Below are positions 50,362 to 51,611 of a stretch of 56,451 nucleotides of DNA, piece by piece. The notes below the pieces were generated by a model. It was not told where the DNA came from. It made no database searches and saw only the letters and a list, made by a program, of their open reading frames with translations. The position numbers and the translations under genes were made by a program. Origin of the DNA: Bifidobacteriaceae bacterium (GTDB lineage: Bacteria; Actinomycetota; Actinomycetes; Actinomycetales; WQXJ01); contig JAITFE010000091.1 of NCBI GenBank assembly GCA_031281585.1, forward strand, positions 1 through 56,451, given 5' to 3'. Numbering within the stretch: position 1 is the first letter of the stretch; every line of letters begins with the position of its first letter.

Positions 50362-50790
50362 GCTACATACCTTCTTACGTCCGAGCCTTTTACACAAACC
50401 GCTGGGCGCGCCTTGTCTCGGATTTCAGACGGGCCGTACCACATTCTGGGCAGTTCTGGGCCTTCGGGCCCCTCTGGCCGGGTTCCCCCCGGGGTGCCCC
50501 AAGGGGAGCCTATTCAAACCTTGCCCCGTGCGCTGAGGCGTTGTATCCGTGCCGGTCCGGCGTGCGGCATGGTGTTCGACCGACTCATTGAGCGCGCCGT
50601 CGCCGCCGACCCACTCACTTACCGCGACCTCGTCCGGGTCGCGGCGCCGAAGGCCACCCGCCGCGCCGGGCACCGTCCTCGGCGTCGGCCACGTCTTCGG
50701 CCGAACCTGGCCTGGGCGGGGTCGTCAAAGTCAGGACGGGACCGTCGCCCGCTTTTCACCGCCGAGGGTCCGCTTTGTCGACGATCACGA
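50362..50790. other. Stretch without a recognisable gene
   Basis: Upstream region of the GTPase operon plus about 300 bases of unclear content. Open frames exist but show no family motifs and no good ribosome binding sites. A short helix-like reading near 50570-50660 (ERAVAADPLTYRDLV) may be a gene remnant. It adjoins the inverted-repeat element, so it may be degraded accessory DNA. Confidence 0.4.
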
Positions 50791-51049
50791 AATCGGGACA
50801 GGCCGCGTCACGCAATCGGAACAGGGCAGCGTTCATCCAGCCGGGGCCGGGATCTTGCCGTCAGACCGGAGGTTGCGCCCCTTCCTGGCTGGTCCTGTCG
50901 TGCGCTGGTGGATCTGCGCTGACCAGATCAAGGACGGCCGTCGGGGCAGTTTCCGTGGGCAATTTGCGGATGCGTCGCCAAGTGGCGATAAGGCCTCCCG
51001 ACTGCGCTGGATCTGGTGTCCCGATTACATGACGCAGGGTGTCCCGATT
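50791..51049. mobile_element. 259-bp element with 33-bp terminal inverted repeats (MITE or IS remnant)
   Basis: The left end (50791-50823) and the reverse complement of the right end (51017-51049) align over 33 bases with 27 matches. Each end carries two copies of AATCGGGACA (one with a single change) separated by 13 bases around GCGTCA. Double subterminal repeats of this kind resemble transposase-binding sites, for example those of IS21-type elements. The 193-base interior has no intact transposase. No clear target-site duplication is visible. Sequence likeness to a surface-protein gene begins right after the right end. Confidence 0.7.
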
Positions 51050-51054
51050 CCTTG

Positions 51055-51611
51055 ACGTTCGACAGCCGCGCCTCCGCCGCCGACGCTGTCGCTGTCTCGG
51101 TCCACGAGGTCGAGGGCCTTCAAGCCGGGTATTCGCTGGATTGGGCGCCGAACAGGCCCGGGAAGCTGACGGTCGCGTTCGATGTGGTCAATACCGGCAA
51201 CGCCCGCCTGGAGGTGTCCGGGTCGCCGCGGCGGAGAAGGAGGTGGCGTGGCCCGACGGCGCGGAGCAAACCGTCAAACTGCTGCCGGGCTCGGTCCGCC
51301 GCGTCGAGGTCGTCGTGCCGCGCGTTTGGCCCACGGTCAGGGTCAAGGCCGCAGTCGAGGCGAAACCCGAGGTGGTGTCCACCGCCTCGGGCGGCGGGGC
51401 GCCTCAGATGGCGCCGGTGGCGGCGGAGGTTTCGGTGTGGGCTTGGCCGTGGCCTCAACTGGTCGCGCTGGCGGGCGCGACCTTGCTGGTCGGCGCGGCG
51501 TTGGGGGCCGGGTCAGGTCGCGGCGGAGGGCGAGGGCCGAGCCGTGTCGGCGCGGCTGGTGCTCACGGCGTTGCTGCGGCACGCGGTTCGGGTGGCGATG
51601 CCTTGAGCTAG
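51055..51611 (+). pseudogene. Frameshifted, 5'-truncated membrane-anchored surface protein (DUF916-like)
   Basis: One frame reads AVSVHEVEGLQAGYSLDWAP and TVAFDVVNTGNARLEVSG. At GGG 51220-51222 likeness jumps to the next frame: VAAAEKEVAWPDG, LLPGSVRRVEVVV, VWPTVRVKA, and a C-terminal membrane helix (PQLVALAGATLLVGAALGA). Together these match the beta-sandwich plus TM layout of DUF916-type (WxL-interacting) surface proteins. One extra G would restore the frame. The N-terminal signal part is missing, cut off at the neighbouring inverted-repeat element. The shift could be a sequencing error in a G run, but the lost 5' end argues for true decay. Confidence 0.65.

Follow-up and report, generated by a model that had tools for sequence, protein, structure and literature searches.

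A single-copy 289-bp element with paired, mirrored transposon-type ends and no transposase, probably a deletion relic, in a Bifidobacteriaceae genome

The element and its surroundings

The window, that is, the whole stretch of 56,451 nucleotides analysed here, carries a short element bounded by inverted repeats and placed between the remnant of a transposase gene and a truncated membrane-protein gene. The features of the locus are the following:

50566-50661, + strand: left neighbour, C-terminal remnant of an IS1595/ISXO2-like transposase (59% over 32 aa to locus L172)
50667-50775, + strand: left flank, 83% identical to contig C61 of the host genome; the similarity stops immediately before TGTCGA
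50776-51064, no strand assigned: whole element as redefined here, 289 bp, TGTCGA...TCGACA, with a 48-nt inverted repeat; the left-flank homology to the other contig ends at 50775
50776-50823, + strand: left terminal inverted repeat, read inward, matching the right arm at 37 of 48 positions
50783-50800, − strand: left outer box TGTCCCGATTTCGTGATC, 2 mismatches to TGTCCCGATTNCNTGACG
50806-50823, − strand: left inner box TGTTCCGATTGCGTGACG, 23 bp from the left outer box, 1 mismatch to TGTCCCGATTNCNTGACG
50824-51016, no strand assigned: interior, 193 bp, without recognisable coding remnant (homology and profile searches)
51017-51064, − strand: right terminal inverted repeat, read inward (repeat search and alignment)
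51017-51034, + strand: right inner box TGTCCCGATTACATGACG, 0 mismatches to TGTCCCGATTNCNTGACG
51040-51057, + strand: right outer box TGTCCCGATTCCTTGACG, 23 bp from the right inner box, 0 mismatches to TGTCCCGATTNCNTGACG
51106-51515, + strand: right neighbour, 5′-truncated, frameshifted membrane-protein gene (tblastx to locus L174, two frames)

The initial annotation had described a 259-bp element with 33-bp ends, each carrying two boxes in mirror orientation. The sequence itself, a repeat search and a box scan agree on the four boxes: TGTCCCGATT occurs exactly at 50791-50800 (−), 51017-51026 (+) and 51040-51049 (+) in the box scan, and the left inner box at 50814-50823 (−) reads TGTTCCGATT, with one mismatch to TGTCCCGATT. 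The mirrored pairs of boxes and the identity of the 33-base arms (27 of 33 positions, counted on the arm alignment) were borne out; the limits had to be revised. By repeat search and alignment, the inverted repeat runs 15 nt further outward at both sides, giving arms of 48 nt (50776-50823 and 51017-51064) with 37 of 48 positions identical (77%), and for this reason the element is better given as 289 bp, from 50776 to 51064, than as 259 bp. It starts with TGTCGA and finishes with TCGACA; TGTCGA is outermost in both arms, the boxes are equidistant from it in both, and within each arm the box-to-box spacing is 23 bp.

Among 48-nt inverted pairs lying within about 520 bp of each other, the best in the whole window was that at 50776-51064, with 37/48, and the arms of the element were the only such pair scoring 33 or more; in 12 order-1 simulations of the window the best pair reached 30-33. 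A single box is weakly surprising (six matches with at most one mismatch in the box scan versus a mean of 2.5), and the paired, mirrored box layout is not explained by chance. Inverted-repeat, alignment, profile and simulation evidence together support the proposal that these are transposon-type ends with paired boxes.

The initial annotation had found no transposase inside, and in agreement with this no recognisable transposase fragment was detected in the 193 bp of the interior. No part of it gave a convincing protein match, the matches outside the element's own copies being weak. The best similarity, 49% over 39 aa, is to the IS21-type transposase region of contig C101 and is not in the IstA frame; a weaker one to the C101 IstA (41% over 41 aa, E 0.03) is in that frame. 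When the interior was searched in six frames with an IstA profile of C101 transposase relatives (three ORFs), the scores stayed within the noise of shuffled copies, and a remnant of the C101 IstA was rejected because the similarity did not hold against shuffles in this profile search. Judged by the homology and IstA-profile tests only, the interior is non-coding, and what is supported at this locus is a pair of transposon ends without a transposase.

The neighbourhood is decayed, with the IS1595 remnant on the left and the truncated gene on the right. The ORF of L172 matches DDE_Tnp_IS1595 with 92.5 bits. In two frames the right neighbour resembles the C-terminal portion of a membrane protein from the congener G002, which led us to read it as a 5′-truncated, frameshifted gene; its homologue (L174:993-2486) has a weak match, below cut-off, to PF06030 (WxL-interacting-protein-like). 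That the homology to C61 ends at 50775 was considered as proof of an insertion site, an argument weakened by the fact that the homology does not resume right of the element. An intact target duplication is absent, the left side (..GTCCGCTT) and the right side (GCCGCGCC..) showing no match at 5 or 8 bp. Over the 15 bp on each side of the element 10 of 15 positions match (P 0.0016-0.003, over window positions and locally), short of the exact 14-16 bp duplication of IS481-type elements; this match does not distinguish a decayed duplication from chance. An excerpt of PMC3281130, concerning one element from another genus, reports that ISPve1 (IS21 family) often makes deletions beside itself, and by analogy such adjacent deletions could explain the absent duplications.

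Copy number and search for relatives

The element is present as a single copy in the host genome, a draft of 3.98 Mb in 169 contigs and 95% complete, in which copies may have been missed. The 18-base box, allowing up to 3 mismatches, occurs at 29 places in this genome versus 12 for the reversed control pattern; the four boxes of the element have 0, 0, 1 and 2 mismatches, and the other 25 places all have 3. A 290-bp query found a match in one of ten genomes of the genus, the host's own, and in none of the nine congeners, in the family (18 genomes, the host's among them) a 44-base arm pattern hit nothing but the element's two arms, and in the class (394 genomes) a two-box pattern hit the element alone. 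For the class and the order, the 394 and 396 genomes searched were drawn from larger groups. Within the host genome neither an assembled element with matching ends nor a matching transposase for these ends was found; no full-length relative with the element's boxes was found, and no element combining AATCGGGACA boxes with a transposase appeared in any search. Other copies of the 33-bp end, or an IS with the same ends, were what the initial annotation had looked to: no second copy came to light, and the match to IS ends amounts to a weak resemblance in one congener and two genomes of the same family, described below.

Some candidate relatives were discarded. A palindrome from the box scan, on another contig of the host genome (G000:C74:2017-2078, L032), is a perfect 30-bp inverted repeat with a 2-bp loop, an unrelated hairpin. 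The loci with two exact boxes, 39 in genomes and 22 in viral sequences, showed no IS by eye, judging from the flanks of all 61, the neighbouring ORFs of 20 and some of the translations.

As a separate observation, contigs of Achromobacter, of Massilia and of viruses (L045, L074-L076, L079, L080, L083, L084, L088-L090, L095-L097) carry arrays of TGTCCCGATTYGGGACTA-like repeats behind a common stretch of TTTTCTTTTGTG or TTGTCTTTTGTG.

Tandem-box ends of other elements

IS21 elements, with IS5376 as the structural model, hold two or more direct repeats 'separated by 23 bp' in each end and terminate in the dinucleotide CA; IstA requires two complete repeats, and both are needed for integration (PMC10122671, in the sections available). 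The available part of PMC11208146 likewise gives the L1/L2 and R1/R2 layout for IS21 ends. The element agrees with this arrangement, having two direct repeats about 23 bp apart in each terminal inverted repeat, inverted with respect to each other at the two ends, and a terminal CA. It differs from the IS21 family in having no istA/istB-type genes between its ends and no short target duplication, of 5 bp as for IS5376 or 8 bp as for ISPve1 in the excerpts available, and its box sequence is unlike that of the IS21 ends seen in this genus, which have TGAGCC-type boxes. In end sequence the best likeness is to ends in three genomes, the congener G002 and G410 and G408 of the same family, whose own transposase was not seen.

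These ends came from a two-arm model run over the 396 order genomes, which gave 46.3 and 45.4 bits to the element's arms and 16-17.4 bits to ten further places in eight genomes. The matches in G002, G410 and G408 have E values of 0.025-0.038 per genome, and nine of the 396 genomes (host included) have a match at E≤0.05, no more than expected by chance, so that the case for these ends is one of anatomy and kinship, not of score. Five of the ten further places are distinct by anatomy, three in G002 and one each in G410 and G408. They match the arms from position 1 and begin with TGT; those of G002 and G410 run into 23-bp box arrays with 4-5 boxes, and that of G408 is without such an array. The three copies in G002 have different flanks and all begin at the same TGT, which indicates that TGT is the terminus of that G002 element. 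Aligned to the element's arms, the ends of the three genomes score 24-25.5, and shuffled ends keeping the TGT reach at most 20.5.

The G002 tandem-box element (contigs C176, C274 and C446) and the G410 and G408 ends thus have the TGT terminus, GTCACGTAAT-type boxes and the best alignment scores to the element's arms, and the 23-bp period is common to the element, G002 and G410. On the other hand, G002 and G410 have 4-5 boxes where the element has two, TTGAGCCA replaces TCGGGACA, and one copy reaches a DUF6431-like ORF. The DNA of the ORF entered by this G002 copy shows 69% identity over 405 bp with a piece of L106, a locus retrieved because it matched an IS21-family transposase. None of the G002 copies showed the transposase: one breaks off in the DUF6431-like ORF, the other two at contig ends. 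At the terminus of this repeated element, arrays of GTCACGTAATTGAGCCA-type boxes with a 23-bp period lie in G002 C176, C274 and C446 and in G410 C43 (L242, L243, L244 and L240); in the G410 copy and in two of those in G002 a contig end cuts the sequence short after 119 bp.

A three-gene element on another contig of the host genome (G000:C95, L245:940-3927) encodes a DUF6431-like ORF, an rve/Mu-transpos_C transposase and an ATPase-like ORF, the last label being a reading of the sequence by eye; the ATPase-like ORF is kept alongside the C95 transposase in G408, G007, G428 and G447. Its rve/Mu-type transposase belongs to a class expected to use repeated end boxes, but a direct scan found no like box adjoining the C95 element, where the model reached at best 4.0 bits, and this transposon was rejected as the source of the element because its surroundings have no such box.

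The IS481-type group was made up of elements related to P0001; a homologue is assigned to the IS481 family by a plasmid record. Among the 59 loci on the list for this test, 18 had TGT/ACA ends flanked by exact duplications of 14-16 bp; as L120 and L205 are the same element, these amount to 17 distinct ones. Those with tandem 23-25 bp boxes (L121, L197, L205 and others) are like the element in their TGT/ACA ends, tandem boxes and AT-core position, most IS481-type ends having in common with it a TGT terminus and, at positions 17-19, an AT(C/A/G) core; they differ from it in being about 1.3-2.0 kb long with a transposase and in their exact duplications. In an end matrix from the 17 elements (34 ends) the left end of the element ranks 3 and the right end 55 among 112,860 window positions. 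Their scores, 11.8 and 2.4 (11.6 and 1.8 without two divergent elements), are to be set beside a minimum of 6.9 and a median of 25.8 for left-out members of the group (12.0 and 27.2 without the same two), which places the element's ends at or below the bottom of the group.

A parent of IS481 type rather than IS21, with a transposase of about 400 aa, tandem end boxes and a 15-bp duplication, would have ends of the same layout as the element's; the two matrix ranks, the 10/15 flank match and the alignment of the IS481-type ends L197R (23.5) and L121R (21.0) to the element's arms, above shuffles (at most 20.5), speak in its favour. This reading was preferred after the duplication test and lowered after the end matrix and the arm-model searches: besides the low matrix scores, the two-arm model matched none of the IS481-type loci given (98 sources; L120 and others left out), and no P0001-like transposase was found in the host genome at 1e-10. 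We now hold it to be doubtful. The preference for IS21 is slight, since the G002, G410 and G408 ends score 24 to 25.5 and the best IS481 end, L197R, 23.5.

Placement beside tRNA genes was seen among the IS481-type elements with 15-16 bp duplications. No paper describing it was found in the portions of the literature searched; in 10 of the 17 loci scanned the element ends within 4 bp of the end of a tRNA gene (L121, L131, L133, L143, L197, L200, L205, L206, L207 and L214).

Origin of the element

We consider it probable that the element is a non-autonomous relic, left in one copy by deletion from an element whose ends were IS21-like or, less probably, IS481-like. The initial annotation had offered two origins, an element moved in trans and a deletion relic. 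The latter fits, since there is a single copy in a decayed neighbourhood; movement in trans is possible, but no second copy was found. Within the relic reading, and as a matter of judgement rather than calculation, an IS21-like parent appears slightly better than an even bet and an IS481-like parent a good deal less likely, the rest being left to another rve-type family. We infer the deletion, the parent family and the mode of end recognition along the following lines. The parent IS would have lost its transposase genes by internal deletion, leaving the paired ends. Its DDE (rve-type) transposase would bind both direct repeats of an end, the outer and the inner one, which lie about two helical turns from each other, and would pair the ends and cut at the terminal CA of TGT...ACA; if the cell supplied a matching transposase, the ends of the element could still be mobilised. 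IS ends orphaned in this way are common, and the element looks like an ordinary relic and not like a novel type of element. By itself it has little significance; it shows in nature what the two-repeat end layout looks like when genes are lacking, and through it the tandem-box element of the same genus in G002 came to light.

The size, the intact paired ends and the empty interior would also fit a MITE, shaped for movement in trans and multi-copy. Several copies sharing ends with an autonomous element were not found, the draft genome holding one copy, the nine congeners none and the 18 family genomes (own included) only the two arms; with one copy only, behaviour as a MITE finds no support, and we regard this origin as unlikely. 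Slightly less likely again would be a functional non-autonomous passenger of an undescribed IS21-related lineage of this bacterial family, still mobilisable in trans, with ends made of 23-bp arrays of 2 to 5 boxes and, behind them in the full element, a DUF6431-type DNA-binding gene. That the stretch is not a transposon at all, and is instead an operator-like pair of sites for a host regulator or a structured RNA, seems very improbable: arrays of TGTCCCGATT boxes do occur elsewhere in contexts without a visible IS, and the stretch folds well (z −3.6), but the folding follows from the inverted repeat and there is no Rfam match, simple scans (sigma-70 consensus only) gave no promoter- or terminator-like site, and the flanks are remnants rather than working genes, with no congener match. 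We attach equally little weight to two unrelated element ends, facing away from each other, having been joined by rearrangement. The lack of an intact target duplication and the unrelated fragments on the left and right would be in keeping with such a junction, but TGTCGA is outermost in both arms with the boxes equidistant from it, as in one element, and TGT is the outer terminus in the G002 copies.
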